This document shows positions 18,091 to 33,736 of a stretch of 64,000 nt of DNA, piece after piece (the stretch's first letter is position 1; each line of letters begins with the position of its first letter). The stretch lies in the NCBI RefSeq assembly GCF_013409995.1, contig NZ_JACCBX010000014.1, positions 62,001 to 126,000 of the forward strand. The letters are read 5' to 3'. The position numbers and the translations under genes were made by a program. A model generated the notes under the pieces. The model saw only the letters and a program-made list of their open reading frames with translations, did not search any database and was not told where the DNA came from. This DNA is from Neobacillus driksii. GTDB lineage: Bacteria > Bacillota > Bacilli > Bacillales > Cytobacillaceae.

Positions 18091-18111
18091 TTTTGCATGT
18101 TAAGTGCAAAA
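18091..18111. promoter_or_regulatory. RocR-like upstream activating site 1
   Basis: Perfect 7-bp inverted repeat TTTTGCA (18091-18097) and TGCAAAA (18105-18111) with a 7-base centre. It resembles the TTTTGCA/TGCAAAA half sites of RocR targets in Bacillus and lies about 75-95 bases before the sigma-54 promoter. Confidence 0.6.
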
Positions 18112-18124: not shown

Positions 18125-18141
18125 TGCAAAGATATTTTGCA
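18125..18141. promoter_or_regulatory. RocR-like upstream activating site 2
   Basis: Inverted repeat TGCAAA (18125-18130) and TTTGCA (18136-18141) around a 5-base centre, 34 bases after the first site. Paired sites are typical of enhancer-binding activators. Confidence 0.6.
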
Positions 18142-18183
18142 TATTAGTTTCACGAAAAGTTCACAAATAGTGGTTTTTACTTT

Positions 18184-18200
18184 TGGCACGGTAATTGCAT
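18184..18200 (+). promoter_or_regulatory. Sigma-54 (SigL) -24/-12 promoter
   Basis: TGGCAC, five bases, then TTGCAT matches the sigma-54 consensus exactly in its conserved GG and GC with correct spacing. It lies about 170 bases before the RocE-like permease gene and just after two activator-type inverted repeats. Confidence 0.82.
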
Positions 18201-19926: not shown

Positions 19927-20808
19927 ATGAAAACAGGTACGGATCGTGTAAAAAGAGGTATGGCTGAAATGCAAAAGGGCGGCGTCATTATGGACGTTGT
20001 GAATGCTGAGCAGGCAAAAATAGCAGAGGAAGCAGGAGCGGTAGCTGTAATGGCATTAGAGCGCGTTCCTTCTGATATCCGTGCAGCTGGCGGAGTAGCA
20101 AGAATGGCAGATCCGCGAATTACCGAAGAAGTCATGAATGCGGTTTCCATTCCAGTTATGGCAAAAGCGCGTATCGGGCACATCGTAGAAGCCCGAGTTC
20201 TTGAAGCAATGGGCGTTGATTATATTGATGAGAGTGAAGTTTTAACACCAGCAGATGAAGAATATCATCTAAATAAAAAAGCTTACACGGTTCCATTTGT
20301 TTGTGGCTGCCGTGATCTTGGCGAAGCAGCGCGCCGTATTGGTGAAGGTGCATCCATGCTTCGTACAAAAGGAGAGCCGGGAACTGGTAATATCGTAGAA
20401 GCTGTGCGTCATATCCGAAAGGTCAATGCACAAGTACGTAAAGTCGTTTCGATGAGTGAAGATGAATTGATGACAGAGGCTAAGCTGCTTGGGGCTCCAT
20501 ATGAACTTCTTCTTGAGATTAAACATCTTGGACGCCTGCCTGTAGTCAACTTTGCAGCTGGTGGAGTAGCAACGCCTGCAGATGCTGCACTTATGATGCA
20601 GTTAGGTGCTGATGGAGTATTTGTTGGTTCTGGAATCTTTAAATCTGATAATCCAGCAAAATTCGCTAGAGCGATCGTGGAAGCAACAACCCACTACCAG
20701 GACTATAAACTAATTGCAGAGATTTCAAAAAATCTTGGGATTGCAATGAAAGGTATTGAAATATCAAGTCTTTCTCCTGAAGCACGTATGCAGGATCGTG
20801 GATGGTAA
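19927..20808 (+). CDS. pdxS: PdxS, synthase subunit of pyridoxal 5'-phosphate synthase
   Basis: The 293-residue TIM-barrel makes PLP from ribose 5-phosphate, glyceraldehyde 3-phosphate and ammonia. The ribose-binding Lys lies in [10 protein letters not shown] (about 79-82) and the second active Lys in [10 protein letters not shown] (about 149). The phosphate loop is [12 protein letters not shown]. The protein is full length. PdxS normally works with the glutaminase PdxT, encoded next to it. Here no pdxT follows, and the next gene is a DUF3870 protein. It may be a second copy that uses free ammonia or a PdxT made elsewhere. The context suggests PLP supply for KamA and two aminotransferases. 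Confidence 0.93.
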
Positions 20809-20897: not shown

Positions 20898-20926
20898 TTG
20901 ACATTGTATTTTCTGGCACATATACT
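20898..20926 (+). promoter_or_regulatory. Sigma-A promoter for the DUF3870 gene
   Basis: TTGACA (20898-20903), a 17-base spacer, then TATACT (20921-20926). The match is near ideal, 51 bases before the start codon. Confidence 0.8.
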
Positions 20927-20976
20927 CGAGTTAGAAAATAATAATGAATAGTTGGTTTTGAAAGGAGTTTTGGGGC

Positions 20977-21306
20977 ATGCAAACATTGGATACAGTGATT
21001 GCTACAGGATATGCTAAAGCTCCACAGGGAACTTCGATGTATGAAATGTATAAGCATGCGGGAATTGTCCTCGAAGTGGATCTGAAAGAGCATATCATTA
21101 TCGGCGCCGAATTCACATTTGTAGCTGAACTAACAAAAAATTATTTTCAAAAACTGCTGATAGGCTACTGTCTTCAAGACGGGGTTGAGCCGCTGATTAA
21201 ACGAATTCAAAGCTTTTATTTTGCTCCATCCCAGCAAGCGATCATTGTGGCTCTCCAAGCTGCAGTTCAACGTTACTGGGATAACGTGAAGCAAATGAAT
21301 ACATAA
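20977..21306 (+). CDS. DUF3870-family protein
   Basis: The 109-residue protein has the DUF3870 body: TVIATGYAKAPQGTSMYEMY, then VLEVDLKEHIIIGAEFTFVAELTKNYF, GYCLQDGVEPLIKRIQSFY and PSQQAIIVALQAAVQRYWD. It has no signal peptide, so it is cytosolic. Family members lie beside amino-acid and propionate-type catabolic genes in Firmicutes but have no assigned activity. It has its own sigma-A promoter and AAAGGAG site and is followed by a large structured RNA or terminator, so it is probably transcribed apart from the lysine genes that follow. Confidence 0.75.
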   Translation: MQTLDTVIATGYAKAPQGTSMYEMYKHAGIVLEVDLKEHIIIGAEFTFVAELTKNYFQKLLIGYCLQDGVEPLIKRIQSFYFAPSQQAIIVALQAAVQRYWDNVKQMNT

Positions 21307-21323
21307 CGTTTGGTTATAATAAA

Positions 21324-21441
21324 GTGGGAAGATGACCTCTTCCCATGGTCTTATTAAAACCGGGCAGACATGGACACTGTGTAAGGAATGTTCGTTAGAA
21401 CAACATTCTTTATAGAGGATTCATGTTTTGCTCGGTTTTTT
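21324..21441 (+). ncRNA. Structured leader or terminator region of unknown class
   Basis: Hairpin one has an 8-bp perfect stem (21325-21332 with 21338-21345). A long outer stem (21356-21366 with 21429-21439, one wobble, continued by 21368-21372 with 21422-21426) encloses a second perfect 7-bp hairpin (21386-21392 with 21402-21408) and ends in six T. It could be a plain terminator of the DUF3870 gene or an attenuator of the CoA-transferase operon. I do not recognise a known riboswitch or T-box core. Confidence 0.5.
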
Positions 21442-21495
21442 ATATTTCCGAACTGTTAAAAACAACAATAGCCGATGGAGAGGAAGGGAAAAAAG

Positions 21496-22152
21496 ATGAG
21501 CAAGCTGATTACATGCGAAGACGCGGTAAAAAAGGTTAAAAGCGGCTCACGGATTATGGTGGGGGGGTTTGGACTTGTAGGAAGTCCGCTGAGTTTAATA
21601 GACGCTTTGGCTCAGACGGAAGTGAAAGACTTAGAGATTATTAGTAATAACCTTGGAGAACCAGGGAGAGGTCTTGGAGTTTTAGTACGGCAAAAACAAG
21701 TAAAAAAAGCGATAGGTTCATATTTTACATCCAACCCAGAGGTAGTTAAAGCCTTTCTGAATAAAGAATTGGAAGTTGAGCTGCTCCCGCAAGGAACGAT
21801 GTCGGAAGCGATTCGAGCGGGCGGTGCGGGACTGGGAGGGTTTTATACGCCGGTCGCCGTAGGAACGAAAATTGCCGAAGCCAAAGAAGAGCGTACTCTT
21901 AACGGTAAAAAATATGTGTTCCAAGAACCTCTTAAAGCTAATGTTGCTTTAATTAAAGCGAAAAAAGCAGATCAATTAGGAAATCTCATATACAACAAAT
22001 CGGCTAGAAACTTCAATCCGATGATGGCGACAGCTGCGGATGTGGTTATTGCAGAGGTAGACGAGATTGTGGAGGCAGGCCAAATTTCTCCTGAAGAAAT
22101 TGTGACCCCGCATTTATATGTTGATTATATCGTTTTGAAGGGCGGGAACTAG
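21496..22152 (+). CDS. yodR: 3-oxoacid CoA-transferase subunit A (YodR/AtoD-like)
   Basis: From the ATG at 21496, after AGGAAGGG, the product is 218 residues, close to B. subtilis YodR. The earlier in-frame start at 21475 lacks a ribosome binding site. It has the subunit A glycine motif GSRIMVGGFGLVGSPLSLIDAL (split here by eye at 23-44), LISNNLGEPGRGLG and AKADQLGNLIYNKSARNFNP. Subunit A binds CoA and pairs with subunit B, encoded one base downstream. In this cluster the expected substrate is 3-oxo-6-acetamidohexanoate, activated with CoA from acetyl-CoA or succinyl-CoA. Acetoacetate cannot be excluded. Confidence 0.87.
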   Translation: MSKLITCEDAVKKVKSGSRIMVGGFGLVGSPLSLIDALAQTEVKDLEIISNNLGEPGRGLGVLVRQKQVKKAIGSYFTSNPEVVKAFLNKELEVELLPQGTMSEAIRAGGAGLGGFYTPVAVGTKIAEAKEERTLNGKKYVFQEPLKANVALIKAKKADQLGNLIYNKSARNFNPMMATAADVVIAEVDEIVEAGQISPEEIVTPHLYVDYIVLKGGN

Positions 22153-22153
22153 C

Positions 22154-22816
22154 TTGAATATGAAACAATACATTGCTGCAAGAGCGGCGAAGGAATTAAA
22201 GCATGGTGATATCGTCAATTTGGGGATCGGGATTCCAACGCTTGTCGCTGATTATATACCATCCGATGTTAAAGTTTTCTTACACTCGGAAAACGGAATT
22301 CTTGGAGTAGGACCTACCCCTGACTTAGAGAACATTGACCAAAATCTTGTCAATGCAGGGAAACTGCCCGTCACAGTATTGGAAGGTTCATCCTTTTTTG
22401 ATAGTGCCTCCTCTTTTGCGATGATTCGTGGAGGACATGTAAGTGTTTCAATTCTTGGGGTGCTGCAAATTGACGCGATTGGGCAGATCGCCAACTGGGC
22501 CGTACCAGGAAAAAGTGTTCTTGGTGTAGGCGGGGCAATGGATTTATTGGAAGGCTCCAATAAGGTGATCGTAACAACGCTGCATACGAATAACCAAGGG
22601 GAGTCAAAAATCGTCAAGGAATTAACCTATCCAATCACCTCTGAACGCAAAGTCGATTTAGTTATTACTGATTTGGCGGTTTTCACTGTAAAGGAGGATG
22701 GACTTTATCTTATTGAGCTGTCCCCTGGAGTTTCTCTTGAGGAAGTTCAACAGAAAACGGACGCTCCTTTCCACATTGCAGAAGCTTTTTATATAGGCAA
22801 AGAGGTGAGGGCGTAA
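22154..22816 (+). CDS. yodS: 3-oxoacid CoA-transferase subunit B (YodS/AtoA-like)
   Basis: The 220-residue partner of the upstream subunit carries the catalytic glutamate in HSENGILGVGP (about residue 46) and the family segments NLGIGIPTLVADYIP and RGGHVSVSILGVLQID. The enzyme forms a glutamyl-CoA intermediate during transfer. The start may be the TTG at 22154, seven bases after GGGCGGG, or the ATG at 22160. It overlaps the thiolase start in a TAATG junction, so expression is coupled. B. subtilis has the same pair in its yodTSRQP-kamA cluster. Confidence 0.88.
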   Translation: MNMKQYIAARAAKELKHGDIVNLGIGIPTLVADYIPSDVKVFLHSENGILGVGPTPDLENIDQNLVNAGKLPVTVLEGSSFFDSASSFAMIRGGHVSVSILGVLQIDAIGQIANWAVPGKSVLGVGGAMDLLEGSNKVIVTTLHTNNQGESKIVKELTYPITSERKVDLVITDLAVFTVKEDGLYLIELSPGVSLEEVQQKTDAPFHIAEAFYIGKEVRA

Positions 22817-24006
22817 TGGTAGTAATCGTAAATGCATTTCGGACTGCTATCGGAACCTTCGGCGGGTCACTGGCGGATACATCTCCAGAAGAGCTGGTAT
22901 CCCTTGTTATGAAAAATAATCTTTCGGCTTCCGGTTATGGTGCCAATATTGTCGATGAAGTCATCGTGGGACAAACAAAGCAAAGTGCGCATGCTCCAAA
23001 TATTGCTAGGGTAGCTGCCTTGCATGCCCAATTTCCTGAATCGATTCCTGCTTATACTGTTCATCGTCAGTGTGGTTCGGGGATGCAGGCCGTCATTAAC
23101 GGAGCGATGTCCATTTTGACTGGTCAGGCAGAGGTTATTTTAGCAGGAGGTGTAGAAAGTATGTCTCAAGCTCCCCATTATACGGTCGGTTCGCGATTCG
23201 GCCTTAAGATGGGAGATTTGACACTGTTTGATTCAAATACGGAAAGTCAGCCAAAATCCCAGCCTGAAGAGATATATGGTCGATTTACGATGGGGCAAAC
23301 AGCCGAATGGCTTGCTGAAAAATATAACATAAGCCGCCGTGAACAAGATGAATTTGCCTTCACGAGTCAGCAGAAAACGAAACGTGCGATTGAAATGGGC
23401 CGGTTTGAAGAAGAAATCATTCCTGTTCCGGTAAAGGAAGGAAAAAGGGGAATTAGACACTTTGCGACAGATGAGCACCCAAGATTGACGAACATCGAAA
23501 AGTTAGGAACTCTACTTCCTGTGTTTCAAAAGGATGGTACGGTAACTGCAGGAAACTCATCAGGCAGAAATGATGGAGCCTCCATGCTGCTGTTAATGTC
23601 GGAAGAAAAAGCAGAACAGCTTGGAGTAGTTCCTATGGCAAGGATCCGTTCCTTTGCTGCAACAGGTGTATCACCAAAAGAAATGGGAATCGGTCCGATT
23701 CCTGCCTCCCAAATCGCGTTGAAAAAAGCGGGTCTTTGTTTGGAAGATATCGATTTGATTGAATTAAATGAAGCGTTCGCAGCCCAAAGTCTTGCTTGTT
23801 TAAGAGAATGGGGCATTAAAGGTGACAACGTAAATGTAAATGGAGGCGCGATTGCACTAGGCCATCCACTGGGGTGTTCCGGTGCAAGAATCGTCACTAC
23901 ATTATGCCATGAGCTTGAAAAGCAAAAACGGCAATATGGCCTTGCAACGATTTGTGTAGCAGGGGGATTAGGAATGGCAATGGTGGTGGAAAGATGGATG
24001 GAATAA
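22816..24006 (+). CDS. Thiolase (acetyl-CoA acetyltransferase family)
   Basis: The 396-residue enzyme has the three thiolase catalytic parts: Cys at about 88 in HRQCGSGMQAV, His in NEAFAAQ and VNGGAIALGHPLGCSGAR near 345-362, and the second Cys in TICVAGGLGMAMVVE near 383. It either joins two acetyl-CoA or cleaves a 3-oxoacyl-CoA. In this operon the natural step is thiolysis of 3-oxo-6-acetamidohexanoyl-CoA to 4-acetamidobutanoyl-CoA and acetyl-CoA. Start and stop codons overlap those of both neighbours. B. subtilis yodTSRQP-kamA lacks such a gene, so this cluster looks more complete. Confidence 0.9.
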   Translation: MVVIVNAFRTAIGTFGGSLADTSPEELVSLVMKNNLSASGYGANIVDEVIVGQTKQSAHAPNIARVAALHAQFPESIPAYTVHRQCGSGMQAVINGAMSILTGQAEVILAGGVESMSQAPHYTVGSRFGLKMGDLTLFDSNTESQPKSQPEEIYGRFTMGQTAEWLAEKYNISRREQDEFAFTSQQKTKRAIEMGRFEEEIIPVPVKEGKRGIRHFATDEHPRLTNIEKLGTLLPVFQKDGTVTAGNSSGRNDGASMLLLMSEEKAEQLGVVPMARIRSFAATGVSPKEMGIGPIPASQIALKKAGLCLEDIDLIELNEAFAAQSLACLREWGIKGDNVNVNGGAIALGHPLGCSGARIVTTLCHELEKQKRQYGLATICVAGGLGMAMVVERWME

Positions 24007-25379
24007 AAAAAGACTATGTGTTTCATCGAGATTTAAAAAAGGAGTACCCAATTATTACCCACGGTGAAGGGGTCTATCTCATAGATGAAAACGGGAAAAA
24101 ATATTTGGATGCTTGCTCGGGGGCGGTTGCAGCCAACTTGGGTCATGGGATTTCTTCTATTGGAGAGGCGATGGCAGAACAAGCAAAAAAAGCGGCTTTT
24201 GTCCATACAATGCGTTTTGAGACAAAAGCGTTGCATGCACTAGCTGAAACAATCGGAAAAATGGCACCAAACCATTTAAATAAAGTGTATTTTACAACCG
24301 GAGGCTCAGAAGCAAATGAAAGCGCTTTGAAGCTGGCGAGGCAATTTCATAAGGATGCCGGCAGACCCCAAAAACACATTGTGATCGGGCGCTGGCAATC
24401 ATATCACGGTAACACCATCGGTTCTTTATCAGCAGGAGGAGACGTTAAAAGAAGACATGCATACACTCCTAATCTTTTAAACTATGCCCATGTCTATTCT
24501 CCGTACTGCCACCGATGTCCATACGATCGTCAAAAAGATGATTGTCTCTCCAAACAAAACTGGACGTGTGTAACGGATATTGAAAGAACCATTTTAGAGC
24601 TTGGTCCTGAGAACGTGTCGGTATTTATCGCCGAACCGATTGTCGGAAGCCAGCAAGGTGCTGTTCCACCGCCGCCGGGGTATTTTGAGAAAGTTAGAGA
24701 GTTGTGTGACCGTTACGAAATCGTCTTAATTATCGATGAAGTGATGACTGGATTCGGCCGTACTGGTACCAACTTTGCGACAGAACAGATTGGAATCGAA
24801 CCTGATATTATCACGTTTGGAAAAGGGGTTTCGGCAGGATATGCTCCGCTGGCCGGGATGATTGTTCATGAACGGTTGATAGATGGGCTTATTCAAAACA
24901 GCGATGGAAAATTTATTCACGGCTATACCTATAGCGGGCATCCTGTGGCAGTGGCAGCCGGCCTTGCTGCCCTAGATGTATATAAGCGTGACAGGGTGCT
25001 GGAAAATGTGAAAGAGCAGAGTTCTTACCTTTTCGATAGGCTTTTAGAACTTAAGCAAAAACATACCTGTATATCCGATGTCCGGGGCAGGGGGCTTTTA
25101 ATTGGAATGGAGCTTATCAAGGATTGTGAGCGTGATTTACTGTTCAATCCATCTGAAAAGGCAGCTGAAACATTGAATAGTATTGCGATGGAACTTGGTG
25201 CGGTTTTTTATCCGGGTACCGGTTCAATTGACGGTACAAATGGGGAACATCTAATTATCAGCCCCCCTTTAAATGTCATGAAAAAAGAGATTGATGAGAT
25301 TGTGAGAATATTAGATGAATCATTATCAATATTCGAAGGTCAATTAAGAAAGGATGAGGCATATGAAATTGCAAAGTAA
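23994..25379 (+). CDS. yodT: Class III PLP aminotransferase, YodT-like
   Basis: From the ATG at 23994, inside the thiolase end, the protein is 461 residues. It has GGSEANESALKLAR, the cofactor stack site HGNTIGSLSAGG, the aspartate in IIDEVMTGFGRTGT and the PLP lysine in TFGKGVSAGYAPLAG (about 276). A Cys-rich insert at about 175-200 (YCHRCPYDRQKDDC) could hold a metal and is shared with some class III relatives. By cluster analogy with B. subtilis yodT it probably removes the 3-amino group of N6-acetyl-beta-lysine. The upstream frame extension (from 23952) is not needed. Confidence 0.88.
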   Translation: MDGIKKDYVFHRDLKKEYPIITHGEGVYLIDENGKKYLDACSGAVAANLGHGISSIGEAMAEQAKKAAFVHTMRFETKALHALAETIGKMAPNHLNKVYFTTGGSEANESALKLARQFHKDAGRPQKHIVIGRWQSYHGNTIGSLSAGGDVKRRHAYTPNLLNYAHVYSPYCHRCPYDRQKDDCLSKQNWTCVTDIERTILELGPENVSVFIAEPIVGSQQGAVPPPPGYFEKVRELCDRYEIVLIIDEVMTGFGRTGTNFATEQIGIEPDIITFGKGVSAGYAPLAGMIVHERLIDGLIQNSDGKFIHGYTYSGHPVAVAAGLAALDVYKRDRVLENVKEQSSYLFDRLLELKQKHTCISDVRGRGLLIGMELIKDCERDLLFNPSEKAAETLNSIAMELGAVFYPGTGSIDGTNGEHLIISPPLNVMKKEIDEIVRILDESLSIFEGQLRKDEAYEIAK

Positions 25380-26652
25380 AACAAAAGAAATTCAAGAGAA
25401 AGCACGAAAGCATCTATCTCCTGTCATGACAAGGGTCACCGAACTAGTCATTGAAAAAGCGCATGGCGCAAAATTTTGGACGACAGACGGAAAAGAATAT
25501 ATCGATTTCGTCTCAGGAGTGGCCGTCAATGCAGTGGGACATACGAACAAAAAAATGGTGGAAGCCATTCAGAAGCAAGCTGAAGCCTTGATACATCTTG
25601 GGTTGAACTATGGTTATTATGAAACGGCGGCAAATTTGGCAGAAAAGCTTGCTCATATCACTCCCGGAAATTTAGACACTGTTTTTTTCTCCAATTCGGG
25701 AGCTGAAGCCATTGACGGTGCGCTTAAACTGGCAAAAGCGGCAACAGGCAGACCGGCCATTATTGCTTTTGAAGGATCGTTTCATGGCCGTACATTAGGA
25801 GCAACAGCCATTACGGCATCAAGCTCTAAATACCGTCGTTATTATGAACCAATTTTAGGTGAGGTGTACCACGTTCCATATCCGTACCCAGCCCAGCTGA
25901 GAAACATTAAAGAAGAAGACGCAGAAGAGTACTGCTTGAATCAGCTTCAAAAATTGTTCGATTTACGTGTGGATCCTTCACGTGTAGCGGCCATCGTCAT
26001 TGAACCGGTAATGGGTGAGGGCGGCTATTATCCGGCACCGCCAAGCTTTTTGCAGGAATTAAGAAAGATTACAGATGAACACGGCATTTTGCTTATTTTT
26101 GACGAAGTACAAACAGGATTTGGCCGTACAGGTAAAATGTTCGCGGCGGAGCATGCGAATGTGACTCCTGATATTTTGGTTCTGGCAAAAGCCCTATCTG
26201 GCGGCATGCCTCTTGGTGCCATTGTAGCAAGTCGTGAGCTTCATGAAAAATGGCCGACGGCTGGTCATGGTTCGACATTTGGAGGAAATCCAGTTTCTTG
26301 TGCTGCGGCATTGGCAAACATTGAGGTCATTGAGGAAGAGAAGTTAGTAGAACGCAGTGCTACACTCGGTGCCAAGATTGTCGGCCGACTTCATAACTCG
26401 GTAGGACATTTACCTGGCATCGTTGAAGTCCGAGGAGTCGGCATGATGATCGGTATTGAATTCGATTCGCATTCTGCTGCTTTATTTGTACCGAAAATTA
26501 AATCGAAAGCACTGGAAAGTGGCTTGCTCATTATGAACTGCGGTGTAAGCGGGCAAACGATCCGATTAATGCTTCCTCTTAATATTCAAGAAGATGTGCT
26601 TGATAAAGGATTAACCATTTTAGAAGATGTGATAACAGAAACAATTTCATGA
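25363..26652 (+). CDS. gabT: 4-aminobutyrate aminotransferase, GabT-like
   Basis: The 429-residue class III aminotransferase has NSGAEAIDGALKLAKAATG, the HGRT motif in SFHGRTLGAT, IFDEVQTGFGRTGKMFAAEH and the PLP lysine in LAKALSGGMPLGAIV (about 265). These are GabT features. It would convert GABA and 2-oxoglutarate to succinate semialdehyde and glutamate. The ATG at 25363 has AAGGA eight bases upstream. ATG 25354 overlaps that site. It overlaps the preceding aminotransferase gene by 17 bases and is followed by a GabD-like gene, which supports the GABA assignment. Ornithine or N-acetylornithine could be alternative substrates. Confidence 0.87.
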   Translation: MKLQSKTKEIQEKARKHLSPVMTRVTELVIEKAHGAKFWTTDGKEYIDFVSGVAVNAVGHTNKKMVEAIQKQAEALIHLGLNYGYYETAANLAEKLAHITPGNLDTVFFSNSGAEAIDGALKLAKAATGRPAIIAFEGSFHGRTLGATAITASSSKYRRYYEPILGEVYHVPYPYPAQLRNIKEEDAEEYCLNQLQKLFDLRVDPSRVAAIVIEPVMGEGGYYPAPPSFLQELRKITDEHGILLIFDEVQTGFGRTGKMFAAEHANVTPDILVLAKALSGGMPLGAIVASRELHEKWPTAGHGSTFGGNPVSCAAALANIEVIEEEKLVERSATLGAKIVGRLHNSVGHLPGIVEVRGVGMMIGIEFDSHSAALFVPKIKSKALESGLLIMNCGVSGQTIRLMLPLNIQEDVLDKGLTILEDVITETIS

Positions 26653-26701
26653 AACTAATTTTCGATTCTTCGGGAATACCACGAAAAAGGAGGTCAAGTT
26701 T

Positions 26702-28162
26702 ATGTTTAGTCAAATCAAAACAGATATCCTTCAGGGAGATCTTTATATAAATGGAAAATGGGTTAGTGCCCCCGATCAGTCCTATTTTGAAAGCGTAAAT
26801 CCGGCAACGGGGGAACTTGTCGGTATATGTGCAGCCGCGACAACGGAGCAAGTGAATGAGGCCGTCGCAACTGCGAATGAAGCTTATTCACAATGGAAGA
26901 ACATCCCCATTCCAGAACGAGCGGCTTATTTAACGAAAGCAGCCCAATTGTTTGAAATACGAAAAGAGGAACTTGCTCGTGTCATGACAATGGAAATGGG
27001 CAAAGTGCTGCCTGAGTCTTTAGGCGAAGTTGGAGTGGTCATCGCGACTGCTCAATATATGGCAGGCGAGGGACGACGCCTCTTTGGAGAAACGGTCCCT
27101 GCAGGGTTCCCAGATCGAAACGTAAGAATGGTTCGTGAACCTCTTGGAGTTGTGGCGTGCATTACCCCCTGGAACTTCCCTGTTGCACTTGGTTCCTACA
27201 AAATCTTTTCAGCTCTGATTGCTGGTAATACCGTCGTATGGAAACCGGCTTCAGAGGTAGCGCTATCAGCAAAGATTTTCGTAGAAGTGTTAGATGAAGC
27301 AGGATTCCCAGCAGGGGTTGTCAATTTAATTACAGGTTCAGGTAGAACAGTCGGGCAAACACTCACAGAGCATTTGGATGTTAAAGTCATTTCGTTTACG
27401 GGCTCAACTGAAGTCGGACAAAAGCTGGCGGAAATGAGCAGTAAAACGTTAAAACGTATTTCATTGGAACTGGGTGGAAAAAATGCAGTGATCGTCTTGA
27501 AGGATGCGGACTTGGACAAGGCGGCAGACGGAATCGTAAAATCGGCGTTTACGACAACTGGACAACGCTGTACAGCGGCAAGCCGAGTAATCGTCGAGCG
27601 ACCAGTAAAGGATTTACTTGTCCAAAAAGTAGTTGACTTAACAAAGTCTATGAAAATAGGAAATGGACTTGAAGAAGGGAAACAATTGGGCCCTCTCGTA
27701 AATGAAGACCAGCTTCATACAGTCGAAAAATATGTAAAAAAAGCGATTGAAGAAGGTGGAAAAACTGTAACAGGCGGCCAGCGTGTCAAAGAATTGGGCG
27801 GCTATTATTATGAGCCGACAATCATTGAGAATGTGAAACCGAATGATACCATTGCACAGGAAGAAATATTTGGTCCTGTTCTTGCCATCATTGAAGTAGA
27901 TTCATATGAGGCAGCAATGGAGGTAAATAACGGGACAATTTATGGGTTATCGACTTCCATTTATACAGAGAGCCTTCATTATGCGAACCGGGCGGCAAAG
28001 GAAGCGGTAAGCGGACTTGTCTATATTAATAACGGAACGTCTAATGCCGAAATGGGTGTGGCATTTGGAGGCATGAAAATGTCCGGAAATGGACACCGTG
28101 AAGTTTCCCATCATGCATTCGATGTCATGACAGAGTGGAAGTCGATTTATACAAACTATTAA
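26702..28162 (+). CDS. gabD: NAD(P)-dependent succinate semialdehyde dehydrogenase, GabD-like
   Basis: The 486-residue aldehyde dehydrogenase has the cofactor loop ITPWNFPVALGSYK (about 155-168), the general-base Glu in LELGGKN (about 255) and the catalytic Cys in TTGQRCTAASR (about 289). The C-terminal GGMKMSGNGHREVSHHAFD is the usual end motif. After GabT it would oxidise succinate semialdehyde to succinate and so close the pathway into the TCA cycle. Related enzymes act on 2-oxoglutarate semialdehyde, and that cannot be excluded by eye. AAGGAGG lies before the ATG, and only 49 bases separate it from gabT. Confidence 0.87.
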   Translation: MFSQIKTDILQGDLYINGKWVSAPDQSYFESVNPATGELVGICAAATTEQVNEAVATANEAYSQWKNIPIPERAAYLTKAAQLFEIRKEELARVMTMEMGKVLPESLGEVGVVIATAQYMAGEGRRLFGETVPAGFPDRNVRMVREPLGVVACITPWNFPVALGSYKIFSALIAGNTVVWKPASEVALSAKIFVEVLDEAGFPAGVVNLITGSGRTVGQTLTEHLDVKVISFTGSTEVGQKLAEMSSKTLKRISLELGGKNAVIVLKDADLDKAADGIVKSAFTTTGQRCTAASRVIVERPVKDLLVQKVVDLTKSMKIGNGLEEGKQLGPLVNEDQLHTVEKYVKKAIEEGGKTVTGGQRVKELGGYYYEPTIIENVKPNDTIAQEEIFGPVLAIIEVDSYEAAMEVNNGTIYGLSTSIYTESLHYANRAAKEAVSGLVYINNGTSNAEMGVAFGGMKMSGNGHREVSHHAFDVMTEWKSIYTNY

Positions 28163-28196
28163 TAAACGGGCCATATCTAGTAGAAGGTGGGAGAAT

Positions 28197-29714
28197 ATGA
28201 GAAAACACCGTATTGGAATTGCATTCTTTTACCATGAATCCCACAGTTTTAGTCCGATGAAAACCGAAATCGAACAGTTTCGAAATGAAGGCTACTATAT
28301 CGGCGAGGAAATTTATGATGCCTATTCAGGAACGAAAACTGAGGTGGGCGGGTTTCTGGATGTATTGATACAGGAGGATGTAGAAATTGTGCCGCTGCTT
28401 TGTGCGGCAGCGGTCCCATCAGGCGTAGTGTCAACTGAAGCATATTCAATCATCGAAGAGCAAATGCTCCAGTCAATCCGGGAGGCTGGAAGGCTCGATG
28501 GTTTATTGCTGGCACTGCATGGAGCAATGGTCGTGGAGGACCTCTTCGATCCGGAAGAGCATTTACTGGGAAAAATTCGTGAGCTGATCGGCCCGATTGT
28601 CCCGATCGCGACAACACTGGATATGCACGCCAATTTAAGTGAAAAAATGATTGATTACACACCGCTTCATTTTGGATTTAAAACATATCCACATGTTGAT
28701 ATGTATGAACAAGGCGTGCATGCTTCAATTGCTTTATTGAAGCAATTAAAGGAAGGTGTGCATTATTATGCTTCTTTTGAAAAATTGCCAATGATGCCTC
28801 CCTCTATCAATATGAGAACTGCAGAAGGACCAATGTACAAAATGATAGAGTGGGCGAAACAAGCCGAAGAGGAAGAAGGAATTTATAATGTGTCCGTATT
28901 TGGCGGCTTTCCTTACTCGGATATTCCGATGGTCGGTGCAAGTGTACTTGTTGTTTCGTTCGATCCGCAAAAAGGAAAAGAGACTGCCCAAAAGATGGCC
29001 TCCTTGTTCTGGAGTGTAAGAGAAGAATTTATCATGGATTTGCCCGGTGTAAAAGAAGGACTCAATTTGGCGATGTCGATTGAAGATGACAAACCGGTCG
29101 TGCTGGCGGACATCTCGGATAATCCTCTAAGCTGCGGGAGCGGGGATACAACAGAGCTGCTTCGGGAGATGTTGAAGATGAACATTCCTGACACGCTGTT
29201 TGGAGGACTCTACGATCCAGAATCCATTGAGGCCTGTCGCAAGAAGGGAACCGGAAATAAGGTATTGTTGTCCCTTGGAGGGAAAGTATCGCCTGAATTT
29301 GGGGAGTCCGTACAAGTGGAAGCAACGGTAGTAGCCTTATCAGATGGTGTATTTCACAATTCTGGACCGTTCAATCAGCATTTAAGAGTCGATTTAAAGG
29401 GTGCGGCCCACATACGTGTGGGCAATATGGATATCCTCCTCATTGGAAGGCCGATGTCAGCAAATGATCCAGAAATGTTTCGTCATATTGGTCTTGAGCC
29501 GCAGGCAAAGAGAATTCTTGGGTTAAAGGCAAAGAATCATTTTCGGGCAGCGTTTGAGCCGATTGTGGGCCGTATCATTTATGTGGATGCACCTGGTGTT
29601 GCATCCAATCGTTTAACAACTTTTATGTATCGTTACATTCCTAAGCCAATATGGCCGCTGGATGATATCGAATATGAAGTAGAACGAAGGAGGACAGAAA
29701 AATGGAAACATTGA
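28197..29714 (+). CDS. M81-family (MlrC-like) metallohydrolase
   Basis: The 505-residue protein has the two-part M81 layout: an N-terminal DUF1485 domain and the C-terminal MlrC region. Probable zinc-site residues appear in FYHESHSFSP (about 10-19), LALHGAMVVEDLFDPE, TTLDMHANLSEK (about 140-151) and FKTYPHVDMYEQG. The best-studied member, MlrC, cleaves peptides formed from microcystin; most others are uncharacterised amidohydrolases. In this cluster a deacetylase for 4-acetamidobutyrate is needed and no M20-type YodQ gene is present, so I infer that this protein may fill that step. It overlaps the acetyltransferase gene by 13 bases. Confidence 0.83.
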   Translation: MRKHRIGIAFFYHESHSFSPMKTEIEQFRNEGYYIGEEIYDAYSGTKTEVGGFLDVLIQEDVEIVPLLCAAAVPSGVVSTEAYSIIEEQMLQSIREAGRLDGLLLALHGAMVVEDLFDPEEHLLGKIRELIGPIVPIATTLDMHANLSEKMIDYTPLHFGFKTYPHVDMYEQGVHASIALLKQLKEGVHYYASFEKLPMMPPSINMRTAEGPMYKMIEWAKQAEEEEGIYNVSVFGGFPYSDIPMVGASVLVVSFDPQKGKETAQKMASLFWSVREEFIMDLPGVKEGLNLAMSIEDDKPVVLADISDNPLSCGSGDTTELLREMLKMNIPDTLFGGLYDPESIEACRKKGTGNKVLLSLGGKVSPEFGESVQVEATVVALSDGVFHNSGPFNQHLRVDLKGAAHIRVGNMDILLIGRPMSANDPEMFRHIGLEPQAKRILGLKAKNHFRAAFEPIVGRIIYVDAPGVASNRLTTFMYRYIPKPIWPLDDIEYEVERRRTEKWKH

Positions 29715-30181
29715 ACAAAACCTATTATGTCGAAGTACCAGCTTCATTGAATCCTGAACAGCAAAAAATGATGATGGAGCTTGAGCAAGATGCGTTTCCG
29801 GGAATAGGAGCAGTAGATGAACAAACCCTTGTCCCACTTACACGCTACGGGAAACTCATTCAATACCGGCAGCAAAATGATCCAAGGCCGATTGCAATTT
29901 GCGAAGTGATGAGAGCTTACAATGATATTCATAAAGCCTACATTTTTGGGTTTTATGTCCGCTCCGACCAGCAAGGGAAAGGAATCGGGAAATTATTTTT
30001 ACAGGAAATTTATCCGATTCTAAAGCAAGATGGTTTTCGTAAGGTTTGCTTAACGGTCAGTACTAAAAACAAGACAGCCGTCAAGTTATATGAAAAATTA
30101 GGGTTTGTCATAAAAGAGACAAGATTAGATGAATTTGGTGAAGGGGAAAATCGCTATTATATGGAATACCTCATTTCTTAA
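29702..30181 (+). CDS. GNAT acetyltransferase, candidate beta-lysine N6-acetyltransferase
   Basis: The 159-residue GNAT protein has motif A with the acetyl-CoA loop VRSDQQGKGIGKLFLQ (about 92-107) and motif B VKLYEKLGFVIKETR. Its gene lies between an M81 hydrolase and kamA. In B. subtilis and in methanogens, KamA/AblA is paired with an acetyltransferase (YodP/AblB) that makes N6-acetyl-beta-lysine, so that role is likely. It is much shorter than the roughly 270-290 residue YodP/AblB enzymes, so it is either a compact replacement or acts on another amine. The start overlaps the upstream stop, with GGAGGACAG as ribosome binding site. Confidence 0.8.
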   Translation: METLNKTYYVEVPASLNPEQQKMMMELEQDAFPGIGAVDEQTLVPLTRYGKLIQYRQQNDPRPIAICEVMRAYNDIHKAYIFGFYVRSDQQGKGIGKLFLQEIYPILKQDGFRKVCLTVSTKNKTAVKLYEKLGFVIKETRLDEFGEGENRYYMEYLIS

Positions 30182-30251
30182 TATCGTAATGATCGAAGGA
30201 GAAATCATTAAAAATGATCGATAAAAAATAGGCTAATTATAGGAGGAGTTT

Positions 30252-31664
30252 ATGATGAGAAACACTTTATTCAAACCAAAAAGACATTGGAAAGAAATCG
30301 AGCTTTGGAAGGATGTTACAGAGGAGCAATGGAACGATTGGGTTTGGCAATTAACGAATACGATCAAAAATTTAGAAGACTTAAAGAAAGTAGTTAACTT
30401 AACACCAGAAGAAGAGGAAGGGGTTTTAATCTCAACAAAAACAATCCCATTAAACATCACGCCATATTATGCATCGCTTATGGACCCAGATGATTCAAGA
30501 TGTCCGGTGCGAATGCAGTCTGTTCCAATTTCTGCGGAATTGCATAAAACAAGATATGATTTAGAAGATCCCCTTCACGAAGATGAAGATTCACCAGTAC
30601 CTGGGTTAACACATCGTTATCCGGATCGCGTATTGTTCCTAGTAACAAACCAATGCTCCATGTACTGCCGTTACTGCACAAGAAGACGCTTCTCCGGACA
30701 AATCGGAATGGGTGTACCAAAGAAACAGTTAGACACAGCCATTAATTATATCGCATCTAACTCACAGATTCGAGATGTGTTAATTTCCGGAGGAGACGGG
30801 CTTCTTATTAATGACAATATTTTAGAATATATTTTAAAGAATTTACGTGAGATTCCGCATGTAGAAATTATTCGTATCGGTACAAGAGCACCTGTCGTAT
30901 TCCCACAGCGTATTACCGAAAATCTTTGTAATATCTTGAAAAAGTATCATCCAGTTTGGTTGAATACACATTTCAATACATCTATTGAAATTACGGAAGA
31001 ATCGAAGCGTGCATGTGAAATGCTTTCAAATGTTGGTGTACCTGTTGGGAATCAGTCTGTTATTTTGGCAGGTATTAACGACAGTGTACCGATCATGAAA
31101 CAGCTTATGCATGACCTTGTTAAAATCCGCGTTCGTCCATATTATATTTACCAATGTGATTTATCAGAAGGGATTGGCCATTTCCGTGCACCAATTAGCA
31201 AAGGATTGGAAATTATGGAAGGACTTCGTGGTCATACATCGGGTTATGCCGTTCCGACATTCATTGTTGATGCCCCGGGTGGAGGAGGCAAAATTCCATT
31301 GCAGCCGAACTATATCATTTCTCAAAGTTCTAATAAGGTCGTATTACGTAACTTTGAAGGTGTCATTACATCTTATCCGGAACCAACAAATTATCAGTCA
31401 GGCAGTGCAGAGGATTACTACAAAAAGGTATATCCTGAAGTGTTTGAAAAGTTTGAAAGTAATGGTGTTCTATCCATTATTGATGATACGAAATTTAACC
31501 TCACACCTGAAGGCTTAAAACGGTTAGATCGCCGCAAAACGTATAAGGAAAATACTGAGCATAGTTCATTAAAAGATAAACGTGACAAACGTGACGAGTT
31601 AAAAGAGAAAAAATTCCAATCACAAATGAAGAAATATGAAACAGTGGGAGCAAAGGAGGAATAA
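30252..31664 (+). CDS. kamA: Lysine 2,3-aminomutase (radical SAM, PLP)
   Basis: The 470-residue enzyme converts L-lysine to L-beta-lysine. The radical SAM cluster motif C-x3-C-x2-C appears as TNQCSMYCRYCTRRRF (about 131-145). The PLP lysine lies in DAPGGGGKIPL (about 345). The pocket segment SGGDGLL and the conserved WLNTHFNTSIEIT are present. The tail after about residue 420 is highly charged (DKRDKRDELKEKKFQSQ), as in Bacillus KamA. Double ATG after AGGAGGAG. This first committed step, with CoA-transferase, thiolase, GabT and GabD around it, makes catabolism more likely than osmolyte synthesis. The enzyme is oxygen sensitive in relatives. Confidence 0.95.
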   Translation: MMRNTLFKPKRHWKEIELWKDVTEEQWNDWVWQLTNTIKNLEDLKKVVNLTPEEEEGVLISTKTIPLNITPYYASLMDPDDSRCPVRMQSVPISAELHKTRYDLEDPLHEDEDSPVPGLTHRYPDRVLFLVTNQCSMYCRYCTRRRFSGQIGMGVPKKQLDTAINYIASNSQIRDVLISGGDGLLINDNILEYILKNLREIPHVEIIRIGTRAPVVFPQRITENLCNILKKYHPVWLNTHFNTSIEITEESKRACEMLSNVGVPVGNQSVILAGINDSVPIMKQLMHDLVKIRVRPYYIYQCDLSEGIGHFRAPISKGLEIMEGLRGHTSGYAVPTFIVDAPGGGGKIPLQPNYIISQSSNKVVLRNFEGVITSYPEPTNYQSGSAEDYYKKVYPEVFEKFESNGVLSIIDDTKFNLTPEGLKRLDRRKTYKENTEHSSLKDKRDKRDELKEKKFQSQMKKYETVGAKEE

Positions 31665-31666
31665 TT

Positions 31667-31945
31667 TTGATTTGTCAATGGTGCGAATCTGACACAGCGC
31701 GTGAAACGAGCAACACAGTGTATTGGGAACTTCCAGATGGAACAAATGCGATCGAAATTAAGGACACACCATCCATTCATTGCTTGGAATGCGGTATGAC
31801 CTATCAAACAGATAATACGGTGAAAGAAATTGAGGATCATCTATTTTTAATCGATTGCTCAAAGCTAGAAAAAAGTATGAAGTATGATACACTTATGGCC
31901 GCTCCACGTTTATTGAAGCGAAACTACTTTGATTTTTCCAAATAA
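31667..31945 (+). CDS. YokU-like two-CxxC zinc protein
   Basis: The 92-residue protein begins ICQWCESDTARE and later has HCLECGMTYQTD, giving two C-x2-C pairs (about residues 3-6 and 39-42) for one zinc. It matches the YokU family, related to the zinc-binding half of MqsA-type proteins, and such genes often follow kamA in Bacillus. A TTG start at 31667 lies two bases after the kamA stop with AAAGGAGGA ahead, so it is tightly coupled. Its role is unknown. Help with kamA assembly or regulation is only a guess from position. Confidence 0.8.
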   Translation: MICQWCESDTARETSNTVYWELPDGTNAIEIKDTPSIHCLECGMTYQTDNTVKEIEDHLFLIDCSKLEKSMKYDTLMAAPRLLKRNYFDFSK

Positions 31946-32002
31946 TTAGCAAGCCGTCTCTCGTTTTTTCGATATTAAGCGAGAGATGAATTTTATTCTT
32001 AT

Positions 32003-32046
32003 GGACAATTTATCCCCATCATCCTGGAAGAAGGGATAAATTGCCC
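32003..32046. repeat. Inverted repeat in the gap before lysP
   Basis: GGACAATTTATCCC (32003-32016) pairs at 13 of 14 bases with 32033-32046 over a 16-base loop. There is no T-run, so it is a regulatory structure or a weak terminator rather than a classic one. A second hairpin (TCTCTCG/CGAGAGA) lies just upstream near 31960-31985. Confidence 0.45.
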
Positions 32047-32233
32047 ATTAGAAATAGAAAGTTTAGCAAACAATCAGTAGGGATAACATAATTCAACTGA
32101 TTGAGGTTTATTTATTATGATTATTTGCATGCGTTTTCTTGTCAGCTAAGTACCTACATCGAAAAAGCAGATGGATAATGCTCTCTAAAAAGTTAGATAG
32201 ATGCTTATCGTACCAAAATGAAGGAGGACAAGA

Positions 32234-33736
32234 ATGGAAGCACTCAAAAGCGATAAAAACGACCAAAATAGTCAGAAGGTTCAGAATAGCGGAGGGAACA
32301 AAGGGCATGTTAAACGCAATCTAAAGGCACGTCACATGACGATGATTGCTATTGGAGGGTCAATCGGGACAGGGTTATTTTTAGCGACAGGGTCGTCCAT
32401 TCAAACTGCAGGACCTGGTGGAGCGCTAATAGCTTATGGCGTTATCGGCATCATGGTCTACTTTTTGATGACAAGTCTCGGAGAAATGGCTACCTTAATG
32501 CCGGTTTCGGGATCCTTTTCAACATATGGCAGCCGTTTTGTCGATCCGGCATTTGGTTTTGCACTCGGTTGGAACTATTGGTTCAACTGGGCTGTTACAC
32601 TTGCGGTTGAAATAGTTGCATCAGCTATTATTATGAAGTTCTGGTTTCCGGATGTACCGAGCATCGTGTGGAGTACACTGTTTTTAGGTCTAATCTTTTT
32701 ATTGAATGCATTATCGGTTAAAAGCTACGGAGAATCCGAGTATTGGTTCTCCTTAATAAAAGTAGTGACAATCATCGTTTTTATTGGAGTCGGTTTGCTC
32801 ACCATTTTCGGCATACTGGGAGGACCGTTTATCGGGTTTAAAAACTTCACAGTAGGACATGCTCCTGTGAATGGCGGCCTTTTGTCCGTTTTAAGTATTT
32901 TTTTAATCGCAGGTTTTTCATTTCAAGGAACGGAGCTCGTGGGGATTGCTGCAGGTGAAAGTGAAGAACCGGAGAAAAACGTACCAAAGGCGATTCGACA
33001 AGTATTTTGGCGAATTCTACTATTTTATATCGTCGCCATTGCTGTCATTGGTCTAATTATTCCTTATACAAGTCCTGACCTGTTAGGCAGGGATGTCGAC
33101 AACATCGCTGTCAGCCCTTTTACTCTTGTATTTGAGAAAGTGGGCATTGCATTTGCGGCATCTGTGATGAATGCGGTCATTTTGACTTCGGTTCTATCGG
33201 CAGGTACTTCTGGTTTATATGCATCGACACGCATGCTTTGGTCCATGGCAAAGGATGGTCAGGCACCTAAATTTTTACAAAATGTAAATGATCGCGGGAT
33301 TCCGATGAATGCCCTTGTCGTCACAACGATTATTGGAGGATTAGCCTTTTTAACGTCCATTTTTGGTGATCAAGTATATACATGGTTATTAAATGCGTCA
33401 GGCTTAACTGGATTTATTGCATGGCTTGGAATTGCAGTCAGCCACTACCGTTTTAGAAAAGCTTATATGGCCCAGGGCAGGGACATGAATGATTTGAAAT
33501 TTAAAGCGAAATGGTTCCCGCTCGGTCCGATTCTCGCTTTTGCGATGTGTATCTTTGTCATTTTCGGCCAAAATTATCAAGCTTTTTTAACTAGTGAGAT
33601 TGATTGGTATGGAGTAGCCGTGTCCTATATTGGTTTACCAATCTTTTTGGGATTATGGCTCGGGTATAAACTTGTTCATAAAACGAAGGTCGTTCCACTA
33701 ATGGAATGTTCTTTTGATGAGATGTCATCTAAATAG
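32234..33736 (+). CDS. lysP: Lysine-specific permease, LysP-like
   Basis: The 500-residue, 12-helix APC carrier is strikingly like E. coli LysP: LKARHMTMIAIGGSIGTGLF (about 37-56), [48 protein letters not shown] and SGLTGFIAWLGIAVSHYRFR. It adds a hydrophilic N-terminal tail of about 30 residues. LysP imports lysine with protons. Its place directly after kamA and its neighbours supports lysine as the pathway substrate. GGAGGA stands five bases before the ATG. It ends with a clear terminator at 33817. Confidence 0.92.
   Translation: MEALKSDKNDQNSQKVQNSGGNKGHVKRNLKARHMTMIAIGGSIGTGLFLATGSSIQTAGPGGALIAYGVIGIMVYFLMTSLGEMATLMPVSGSFSTYGSRFVDPAFGFALGWNYWFNWAVTLAVEIVASAIIMKFWFPDVPSIVWSTLFLGLIFLLNALSVKSYGESEYWFSLIKVVTIIVFIGVGLLTIFGILGGPFIGFKNFTVGHAPVNGGLLSVLSIFLIAGFSFQGTELVGIAAGESEEPEKNVPKAIRQVFWRILLFYIVAIAVIGLIIPYTSPDLLGRDVDNIAVSPFTLVFEKVGIAFAASVMNAVILTSVLSAGTSGLYASTRMLWSMAKDGQAPKFLQNVNDRGIPMNALVVTTIIGGLAFLTSIFGDQVYTWLLNASGLTGFIAWLGIAVSHYRFRKAYMAQGRDMNDLKFKAKWFPLGPILAFAMCIFVIFGQNYQAFLTSEIDWYGVAVSYIGLPIFLGLWLGYKLVHKTKVVPLMECSFDEMSSK

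Follow-up and report, generated by a model that had tools for sequence, protein, structure and literature searches.

A second gene set, preceded by a sigma-54 promoter, with a probable role in lysine degradation to succinate via N6-acetyl-beta-lysine in Neobacillus driksii

A lysine 2,3-aminomutase gene (kamA) of Neobacillus driksii lies, in the window analyzed here (the whole stretch of 64,000 nucleotides, from contig 14), among genes of apparent amino acid catabolism, which raises the question of whether these form a route from lysine to succinate and how they relate to the yodTSRQP-kamA set of Bacillus subtilis, of which a preliminary description had taken them to be an extended version. 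All genes listed in that description (kamA, a GNAT gene, two class III aminotransferase genes, CoA-transferase A/B, thiolase, a GabD-like dehydrogenase, an M81 hydrolase, and a LysP permease) were present on the plus strand and joined by overlaps or short gaps. The gene set probably begins upstream of position 20977, at a sigma-54 promoter at position 18183 (Table 1). What we take to be the catalytic motifs are readable in the translations: Cys/His/Cys of the thiolase, SENG of the CoA-transferase, the aminotransferase Lys, and Cys/Glu of the aldehyde dehydrogenase.

Table 1. Features of the gene set and their positions in the window; paired scores are given against the cut-off of the respective model
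Feature	Position	Strand	Basis
Palindrome 1, TTTTGCA-N6-GTGCAAAA, probable activator site	18091..18111	+	alignment with relatives
Palindrome 2, TGCAAA-N5-TTTGCA in the window, probable activator site	18125..18141	+	alignment with relatives
Sigma-54 (-24/-12) promoter, TTGGCACGGTAATTGCA	18183..18199	+	only perfect match within the window
Amino-acid permease, between promoter and pdxS	18368..19807	+	PF00324; below cut-off for all NCBIfam models listed
pdxS, pyridoxal-5'-phosphate synthase subunit	19927..20808	+	PF01680, 2.3e-105
DUF3870 protein, 109 aa	20977..21306	+	PF12986, 7.8e-28
3-Oxoacid-type CoA-transferase subunit A	21475..22152	+	TIGR02429, 243.4 vs 128.5
3-Oxoacid-type CoA-transferase subunit B	22154..22816	+	TIGR02428, 299.8 vs 243.55
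Thiolase (acetyl-CoA C-acyltransferase)	22816..24006	+	TIGR01930, 472.9 vs 240.55
Class III aminotransferase 1, probable N6-acetyl-beta-lysine transaminase	23994..25379	+	family profiles
Class III aminotransferase 2, probable GABA transaminase	25354..26652	+	best NF005993, 554.8 vs 574
Aldehyde dehydrogenase, probable succinate-semialdehyde dehydrogenase	26702..28162	+	best NF042993, 499.5 vs 770
M81 (MlrC-like) metallohydrolase, proposed 4-acetamidobutyrate deacetylase	28197..29714	+	PF07364, 2.9e-93; PF07171, 1.2e-48
Short GNAT, 159 aa, proposed beta-lysine N6-acetyltransferase	29702..30181	+	PF00583
kamA, L-lysine 2,3-aminomutase	30252..31664	+	TIGR03820, 630.5 vs 525.4 bits
yokU, small protein typical of kamA loci	31667..31945	+	TIGR03829 YokU_near_AblA, 138.7 vs 90.85
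LysP-type permease	32234..33736	+	NF008094/PRK10836, 744.7 vs 735

The N. driksii genome also carries a canonical kam/yod locus on contig 3, with genes for KamA, AblB/YodP, YodQ, YodT, and a KamR-like activator; its gene order matches that of B. subtilis yod-kamA, with an aldehyde dehydrogenase and an activator added. Thus, the window contains a second, largely unrelated gene set beside the canonical locus and not the B. subtilis set plus additions. The only close pairs between the two loci were KamA (83% identity) and yokU (60%). The CoA-transferase subunits A and B were 43% and 48% identical to their counterparts, aminotransferase 1 was 40% identical to YodT, and the two aldehyde dehydrogenases were 37% identical; the GNAT and the M81 hydrolase of the window gave no BLASTP match in the canonical locus. 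There, the GNAT was assigned to AblB by TIGR03827 (299.8 versus a cut-off of 205.1 bits) and the M20 hydrolase to YodQ by NF005373 (687.8 versus 428 bits). In the window operon no M20 hydrolase was found, and an M81 enzyme is encoded instead.

The labels gabT and gabD exceeded the evidence, as aminotransferase 2 scored below the cut-off of the curated GABA transaminase (GabT) model (TIGR00700, 383.5 versus 506.65 bits) and the aldehyde dehydrogenase below that for succinate-semialdehyde dehydrogenase (GabD; TIGR01780, 402 versus 646.35 bits). For aminotransferase 1 the ATG at 23994 was taken as start, the longest open reading frame running from a TTG at 23952. The thiolase had nine matches in its own genome, itself counted, the next best being 53% identical. 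No pdxT directly adjoins pdxS, which was present in 13 of 36 related loci and in 5 of 15 loci of an order-wide sample. None of the 16 related loci that bear the promoter has a labelled counterpart of the permease upstream of pdxS in the interval from promoter to first gene. The downstream permease, assigned by what we take to be the LysP family model, was found in most kamA-bearing related loci; its gene lies 288 bases beyond yokU and may form a separate transcript. An AlphaFold2 model of the DUF3870 protein (pLDDT 82.9) gave no fold match at E 1e-3; the top match, IscU, was too weak (E 7.5e-3, TM 0.59) for a role to be assigned to the protein. The sigma-54 promoter, the upstream permease, pdxS, DUF3870, yokU, and forms of the locus without kamA are additions to what the preliminary description had covered.

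Of 36 related loci found in a search for the same neighbourhood in relatives, as suggested in that description, 29 hold the complete set of nine genes from DUF3870 to the GNAT (referred to below as the module), so that their grouping is not due to chance. The sigma-54 promoter precedes the module in 16 of the 36 loci, with 15 perfect matches and one mismatch in the remaining one. Palindrome 1 of the window could be aligned, apart from minor deviations, to 16 related loci, and for palindrome 2 the left half read TGCCAA in 15 of the 16 and the right half TTGGCA in eight, being variable in the others. The -24/-12 element with candidate activator sites upstream points to a sigma-54-controlled operon. 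Within the 6.5 Mb genome the palindrome 1 pattern occurred at two places, here and on contig 17; the latter copy lies inside a 385-aa open reading frame and was set aside. No dedicated sigma-54 activator gene was found in the locus, and none of the 15 PF00158 matches of the genome falls on contig 14. The KamR-like activator, considered as a candidate regulator of the window operon, is encoded in the canonical locus on contig 3, a contig without any match to the palindrome 1 pattern, and by eye the palindromes of the window were absent from the 170 bases above the canonical kamA promoter (TTGGCATAGTTCTTGCA). Scans of the window for Rfam families, at gathering threshold, and for tRNAs gave no match, hence no lysine riboswitch was seen; sigma-70-like promoters and terminator-like stems were no commoner than in shuffled sequences and were disregarded.

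Alignment of KamA to structure 2a5h showed conservation of C125, C129, and C132, which form the radical SAM motif CxxxCxxC, and of R134, D293, D330, and K337; K337 is the PLP lysine, and the two aspartates bind the side-chain amino group of the substrate. The GNAT gave no TIGR03827 (AblB/YodP) match at E 1e-3 and is thus not assigned to AblB. Its gene overlaps the M81 gene by 13 bases. The hydrolase belongs to the M81 family, with scores of 312.8 (PF07364) and 166.1 bits (PF07171) versus cut-offs of 22.8 and 27.2, respectively, and is distinguished from microcystinase MlrC by the NF041767 model (173.6 versus a cut-off of 999 bits). The MlrC zinc-site residues E56, H150, D184, H186, and H208 correspond to E14, H108, D142, H144, and H166 of the window enzyme, using an offset of 17 between the published numbering and the 7ylq chain that was worked out in this analysis. 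None of the five varied among the 47 M81 frames of at least 400 aa. We propose the short GNAT as a non-AblB acetyltransferase and the M81 protein as a deacetylase. The open-licence papers searched contained no report of lysine degradation that involves an M81 enzyme or an acetyltransferase other than AblB.

We consider it likely that the region 18183-31945 (perhaps to 33736) is a sigma-54-controlled operon for the degradation of lysine to succinate via N6-acetyl-beta-lysine, with the GNAT as acetylating and the M81 enzyme as deacetylating component, running parallel to the canonical locus. Gene content, protein families, the active-site residues of KamA and the M81 enzyme, the conserved promoter, the second locus, and the co-occurrence described below are derived from the sequences; the reactions after KamA and their substrates are predictions. 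In the proposed route, KamA would convert L-lysine to beta-lysine, and the short GNAT would acetylate its distal amino group; therefore, the 3-oxo compound formed later would be unable to close to a pyrroline. Aminotransferase 1 would strip the beta-amino group to give 6-acetamido-3-oxohexanoate, which CoA-transferase A/B would activate, with CoA perhaps supplied by the product 4-acetamidobutanoyl-CoA, and the thiolase would split off acetyl-CoA. The M81 metallohydrolase would then take off the acetyl group to yield GABA, and aminotransferase 2 and the aldehyde dehydrogenase would convert GABA to succinate; PdxS may serve the PLP demand. The chemistry of this route is already known; what is new is the variation in its gene set. 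Alternatively, KamA and the GNAT might produce N6-acetyl-beta-lysine as a compatible solute, the remaining genes recycling it after stress. Methanogens make this osmolyte by a lysine 2,3-aminomutase and a beta-lysine acetyltransferase, and it was also found in Bacillus cereus CECT 148 (PMC4685198). An osmolyte locus appears improbable, however, given the full degradative gene set, a GNAT other than AblB, and a sigma-54 promoter of the type that drives amino acid catabolism in Bacillus thuringiensis (PMC4428206).

The distribution of the genes was followed in 397 genomes of the order, 204 of them with KamA. All 16 genomes with the M81 enzyme contained KamA. The enzyme was present in all eight KamA genomes without YodP versus 8 of 196 with YodP, and in six of eight without YodQ versus 10 of 196 with YodQ; Fisher p-values overstate the evidence of these contrasts, because the genomes are related. 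With a stricter YodP threshold the first contrast dropped to 9 of 22 versus 7 of 182, and 13 KamA genomes whose YodP matches were all weak had no M81. In each of the eight YodP-less genomes the short GNAT gene adjoins the M81 gene. The thiolase was absent from the locus in three of them (G039, G083, and G117), and in G039 and G083 neither CoA-transferase nor kamA lies beside M81. The lysine-to-succinate route already proposed in the preliminary description is still the best reading and gains support from this co-occurrence, whereas its identification of the GNAT as YodP/AblB had to be abandoned. The same route could also be served by a different division of labour, with M81 acting as thioesterase and deacetylase on 4-acetamidobutanoyl-CoA, or with M81 hydrolysing another amide and deacetylation left to a different hydrolase, e.g. 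a retained YodQ. A Pseudomonas deacetylase-thiolesterase reportedly acts on 4-acetamidobutyryl-CoA, the M81 enzyme MlrC cleaves an Adda-Glu bond, and two of the YodP-less genomes (G281 and G400) keep YodQ. We regard this division as unlikely, though worth bearing in mind, since the other six combine M81 with the absence of YodQ at the threshold used, and M81 and GNAT genes adjoin in all 36 related loci. As G281 and G400 retain YodQ, and two further KamA genomes (G069 and G186) contain neither YodQ nor M81, the M81 enzyme is no strict substitute for YodQ.

Five related loci have no kamA in the operon; they encode an ABC transporter for amino acids together with a flavin dehydrogenase that consists of four subunits and is of the opine/proline type. 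Peribacillus and Pseudogracilibacillus are among the carriers of this dehydrogenase. Six genomes with a kamA-less module carry kamR-kamA elsewhere; in the five of these where the upstream region is not cut by a contig end, yodT, CoA-transferase, and yodP genes do not adjoin it. In G008, one of the genomes with the five loci that bear the transporter and dehydrogenase genes, no lysine 2,3-aminomutase was found. On account of these genes and of G008, there seems to be a second way into the module besides KamA. The same loci would fit an original substrate other than lysine-derived beta-lysine, i.e. another diamino acid, with kamA as a later addition; this is a rather doubtful reading, as KamA was present in every M81 genome of the order sample, 27 of the 36 related loci have kamA inside the operon, and the module KamAs cluster together in the tree. 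Tentatively, the nine-gene block might be exchangeable as a module for the catabolism of diamino acids of the beta-lysine type, headed either by KamA, for lysine, or by the flavin dehydrogenase, which would open an imported opine-like compound or cyclic secondary amine and so feed the same acetylated intermediates without any lysine 2,3-aminomutase; the M81 enzyme would then be a small-molecule N-deacetylase and the GNAT an independently evolved second beta-lysine acetyltransferase.

The operon provides, within a single stretch of DNA, a candidate gene for each step between lysine and succinate, which opens the physiological function of KamA to a direct test. It would also give a defined function to the M81 hydrolases, a family that to our knowledge is mostly uncharacterised, and suggests that beta-lysine acetylation may have arisen twice within one bacterial order.

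With B. subtilis yodTSRQP-kamA-yokU the window shares KamA, YokU, the 3-oxoacid CoA-transferase pair, a class III aminotransferase, one GNAT, and one metallohydrolase. The GNAT and the hydrolase are, however, unrelated to the YodP and YodQ of its own canonical locus, and the window has, in addition, a thiolase, another aminotransferase, DUF3870, and pdxS, with a promoter ahead of the whole set. PMC6522883 lists B. subtilis kamA and yodT as SigE genes and states that the physiological function of KamA is still to be determined. As in the window, kamA of the B. thuringiensis kam locus, a locus of lysine metabolism, stands under a -24/-12 promoter (PMC4428206), but there an activator gene adjoins kamA, whereas none was found on contig 14. 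Flavin opine dehydrogenase, D-hydroxyproline dehydrogenase, and archaeal L-proline dehydrogenase, as described in PMC4575208, resemble in subunit make-up the complexes of the five kamA-less loci, which are absent from the window. The methanogen AblA/AblB system has the same lysine 2,3-aminomutase step followed by beta-lysine acetylation, but it stops at the osmolyte, and its acetyltransferase is AblB (TIGR03827), which is absent from the window operon. Microcystinase MlrC, finally, shares both Pfam domains and the five conserved residues of the active site with the M81 enzyme of the window, for which a different substrate is expected.

Gene calls and NCBIfam/Pfam family matches bore out the genes and families listed in the preliminary description, all on the + strand, and revealed four features absent from it: DUF3870, yokU, pdxS and a permease at 18368. 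DUF3870 is followed after 168 bases by CoA-transferase A, which is separated from CoA-transferase B by 1 base; the CoA-transferase B and thiolase genes overlap by 1 base, thiolase and aminotransferase 1 also overlap, and aminotransferases 1 and 2 overlap by 26 bases. Gaps of 49 and 34 bases then lead to the aldehyde dehydrogenase and to the M81 hydrolase gene, which overlaps the GNAT gene by 13 bases; kamA follows after 70 bases and yokU after a further 2. The LysP-type permease starts 288 bases past yokU and may be separate from the operon. A 9-pair stem-loop between DUF3870 and CoA-transferase A is possibly a processing site or an attenuator; stems of this type are not in excess over shuffles. 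The window also contains a phosphonate C-P lyase type operon and a probable sugar-acid catabolic operon (table).

The window genes had been taken for an extended B. subtilis yod-kamA set and the GNAT for YodP/AblB. Neither assignment held: the canonical set, YodP included, stands on contig 3 of the same genome, and its YodP gave no BLASTP match to the window GNAT. The second KamA copy, on contig 3, is 83% identical to window KamA; the other BLASTP identities between the two sets were 60% for YokU, 43% and 48% for CoA-transferases A and B, 40% for aminotransferase 1 versus YodT, and 37% for the aldehyde dehydrogenases. The window GNAT, M81, thiolase and DUF3870 had no BLASTP match in the canonical set at E 1e-3. 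On the basis of this comparison, the window holds a second set with a non-YodP acetyltransferase.

Features of the window, of the canonical locus and of two related loci
Feature	Location	Strand	Remarks
Sugar-acid catabolic operon (probable)	2985-9018	+	dihydrodipicolinate-synthase-like aldolase, GntP permease, 3-hydroxyisobutyrate-dehydrogenase-like enzyme, enolase-like dehydratase, glycerate kinase
Glutamate dehydrogenase gene remnant	17820-17924	+	35 codons (PF00208, E 7e-9), above promoter region; surroundings: one frame full of stops
Palindromes 1, 2 (probable activator sites)	18091-18111, 18125-18141
Sigma-54 element	18183-18199
Permease	18368-19807	+
Nine-gene module, DUF3870 to GNAT	20977-30181	+
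Stem-loop	21324-21346	+
kamA	30252-31664	+
LysP-type permease	32234-33736	+
C-P lyase type operon	41655-50663	+	PhnH, PhnI, PhnJ, ABC ATPases, amidohydrolase, phosphonate-binding protein, permease
YodT, canonical locus	contig 3		NF005375, 725.7 vs 535
CoA-transferase A and B, canonical locus	contig 3
M20 hydrolase YodQ, canonical locus	contig 3		NF005373, 687.8 vs 428
Aldehyde dehydrogenase, canonical locus	contig 3
AblB/YodP, canonical locus	contig 3		TIGR03827, 299.8 vs 205.1
KamR-like PAS sigma-54 activator, canonical locus	contig 3
KamA, YokU, canonical locus	contig 3		sigma-54 promoter ahead of kamA
Second kamA, Peribacillus kribbensis (G007, L115)	contig 4, 250901-251695		in pieces; module kamA intact
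Brevibacillus metagenome contig (L055)	10001-11292		partial M81, GNAT, sigma-54 activator; other module genes absent

A search of genome contigs with M81 yielded 36 related loci: 12 come from Neobacillus, 9 from genomes labelled Bacillus sp., 6 from Peribacillus, 2 from Robertmurraya and 7 from other sources. A single fragmented genome, N. pocheonensis, accounts for four of the 36. These relatives suggest that the window, too, belongs to Neobacillus. All nine module genes were labelled in 29 loci; the exceptions are partial (L041, L051, L055), without DUF3870 (L047, L056), or left-cut and rearranged (L048, L052). GNAT adjoins M81 in 36 of 36 loci, and L055 retains it beside a partial M81. kamA lies within the module in 27 loci; among those without it in place, the contigs of L038 and L049 end just past GNAT, and L044, cut on its left side, has no kamA past GNAT. 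The N. pocheonensis loci (L041, L043, L049, L051), all at contig ends, carry several module genes repeated or split into two frames, for which sequence or assembly error and decay cannot be told apart.

For a KamA tree, 79 loci gave 46 proteins after identical ones were collapsed; 30 of these come from loci that carry the module GNAT, the other 16 do not. The module KamAs cluster together, with support of 100/99 for a main group of 27 and weak support (90/40) for a wider group of 31. The KamA of L066 groups with them; it lies on a different contig from the module, which in that genome is cut off after GNAT by the contig end. The module label changes twice on this tree versus a mean of 13.4 times in shuffles.

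Sixteen genomes were picked from those behind the 36 loci. In 15 of them a lysine 2,3-aminomutase was matched at 74% identity or more; the match in Pseudogracilibacillus auburnensis (G008, L052) reached only 34%. Six genomes with the module but no kamA in place (G001 to G004, G006, G009) have kamA elsewhere, beside a kamR-like gene, and next to it no yodT, CoA-transferase or yodP was found in five of the six (in G001 the region upstream of kamA is cut by the contig end); yodQ is retained there in G003 and the aldehyde dehydrogenase in G004. YodP was not found at E 1e-5 in G001 to G005, G007, G008, G010 and G016; it occurs at 40% identity in two Brevibacillus genomes, on contigs other than that of kamA, and at 57-87% in the remaining five. 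P. kribbensis carries a second, fragmented kamA (table).

The kamA-beside-kamR loci prompted a co-occurrence analysis of 397 genomes of the order, some of the prompting genomes and our own included. Searches of this same sample matched M81 in 16 genomes (E 1e-150), KamA in 204 (1e-150), YodP in 212 (1e-20) and YodQ in 206 (1e-90), and all 16 M81 genomes have KamA. M81 occurred in 8/8 KamA genomes without YodP versus 8/196 with it (Fisher p 2e-10), and in 6/8 without YodQ versus 10/196 with it (p 2e-6); these p-values are too good, because the eight YodP-lacking genomes fall into four sample families (f1, f24, f30, f45) and thus represent fewer than eight independent events. Thirty YodP matches were weak (6e-30 to 1.5e-51) and are probably other GNATs, since all 16 genomes with YodP but without KamA are among them; when they were scored as absent, M81 occurred in 9/22 versus 7/182 (p 3e-6). 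One genome, G393, combines M81 with a weak YodP match, and its M81 has beside it neither a GNAT nor an aminotransferase 2 or aldehyde dehydrogenase of the module kind. A short GNAT (60-83% identical) adjoins M81 in all eight YodP-lacking KamA genomes. The locus is reduced in three of these. Thiolase and DUF3870 are missing from G117, which has kamA and yokU in front; in G039 and G083 the locus has shrunk to the two aminotransferases (1 and 2), aldehyde dehydrogenase, M81 and GNAT, with kamA 15-19 kb off. The M81 match of G039 and G083 includes one stop codon within its aligned part, the open frame being 494-497 aa.

We consider it fairly probable, slightly less so because of these three reduced loci, that the window operon converts lysine to succinate; for the steps after KamA, we infer from sequence the order beta-lysine, acetylated intermediates, 4-acetamidobutyrate, GABA, succinate. 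Acetylation is proposed because free 6-amino-3-oxohexanoate would cyclise to a five-membered pyrroline, a ring closure that the acetyl group would block. In acetylornithine, acetylation likewise prevents ring closure. The acetyl-CoA used by GNAT would be offset by that released by the thiolase, and a CoA-transferase drawing CoA from 4-acetamidobutanoyl-CoA would achieve activation without ATP cost. By alignment, the window M81, the proposed deacetylase, has all five MlrC active-site residues as named in a part of PMC12474180. They are invariant in all 47 M81 frames that reach 400 aa, drawn from 50 loci of which a few represent the same genome twice.

The operon probably starts further upstream, at the single perfect -24/-12 sigma-54 element of the window. 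About 0.03 perfect matches are expected per 64 kb on both strands, assuming equal base frequencies and 11 fixed bases (our arithmetic); with up to two mismatches, 19 matches were found versus 17 expected, so that the case for the promoter relies solely on the perfect match and on how well it is conserved. The element and the two palindromes above it align in the window and 16 of the 36 related loci (15 perfect; one mismatch in L026). These 16 are among the 27 loci with kamA in the module, of which L041 and L051 reach a contig end before the region; with one mismatch allowed, the element was not found in the other nine (L031, L033, L034, L035, L037, L039, L047, L050, L056). Loci L090-L094, from one further genus, have it with one mismatch and GG and GC intact; upstream of L120, L121, L122 and L140 the consensus was not found. 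The window permease sits between the promoter and pdxS, a position in which no permease was labelled in the 16 related loci with the element. The palindrome 1 pattern occurs at two places in the genome, and the sigma-54-activator domain has 15 matches genome-wide, none on the window's contig. A glutamate dehydrogenase remnant lies above the promoter region (table).

In five loci without kamA (L042, L045, L046, L048, L052) there are genes for an amino-acid ABC transporter and four genes for a flavin dehydrogenase; aminotransferase 2 is absent from L052, whose DUF3870 and CoA-transferase A are located further to the left (L140). The closest match of the catalytic subunit is 1y56_B, a chain whose record calls it sarcosine oxidase and which we take to be an archaeal L-proline dehydrogenase subunit; that of the alpha subunit is sarcosine oxidase alpha. 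The subunit make-up fits the opine/D-hydroxyproline/L-proline dehydrogenase family as outlined in a part of PMC4575208.

The pathway chemistry and the canonical locus are already known. According to sections of the respective papers, the B. thuringiensis kam locus is controlled by sigma-54 and KamR (PMC4428206), B. subtilis KamA is active in vitro with its function stated as undetermined and YodT stated as unknown (PMC6522883), and acetyl-beta-lysine serves as an osmolyte (PMC4685198). Within the open-licence literature searched, the following appear to be new: a second set that is not orthologous to the first, the association of its GNAT/M81 pair with YodP absence, and a form of the module that lacks kamA and has a flavin dehydrogenase.
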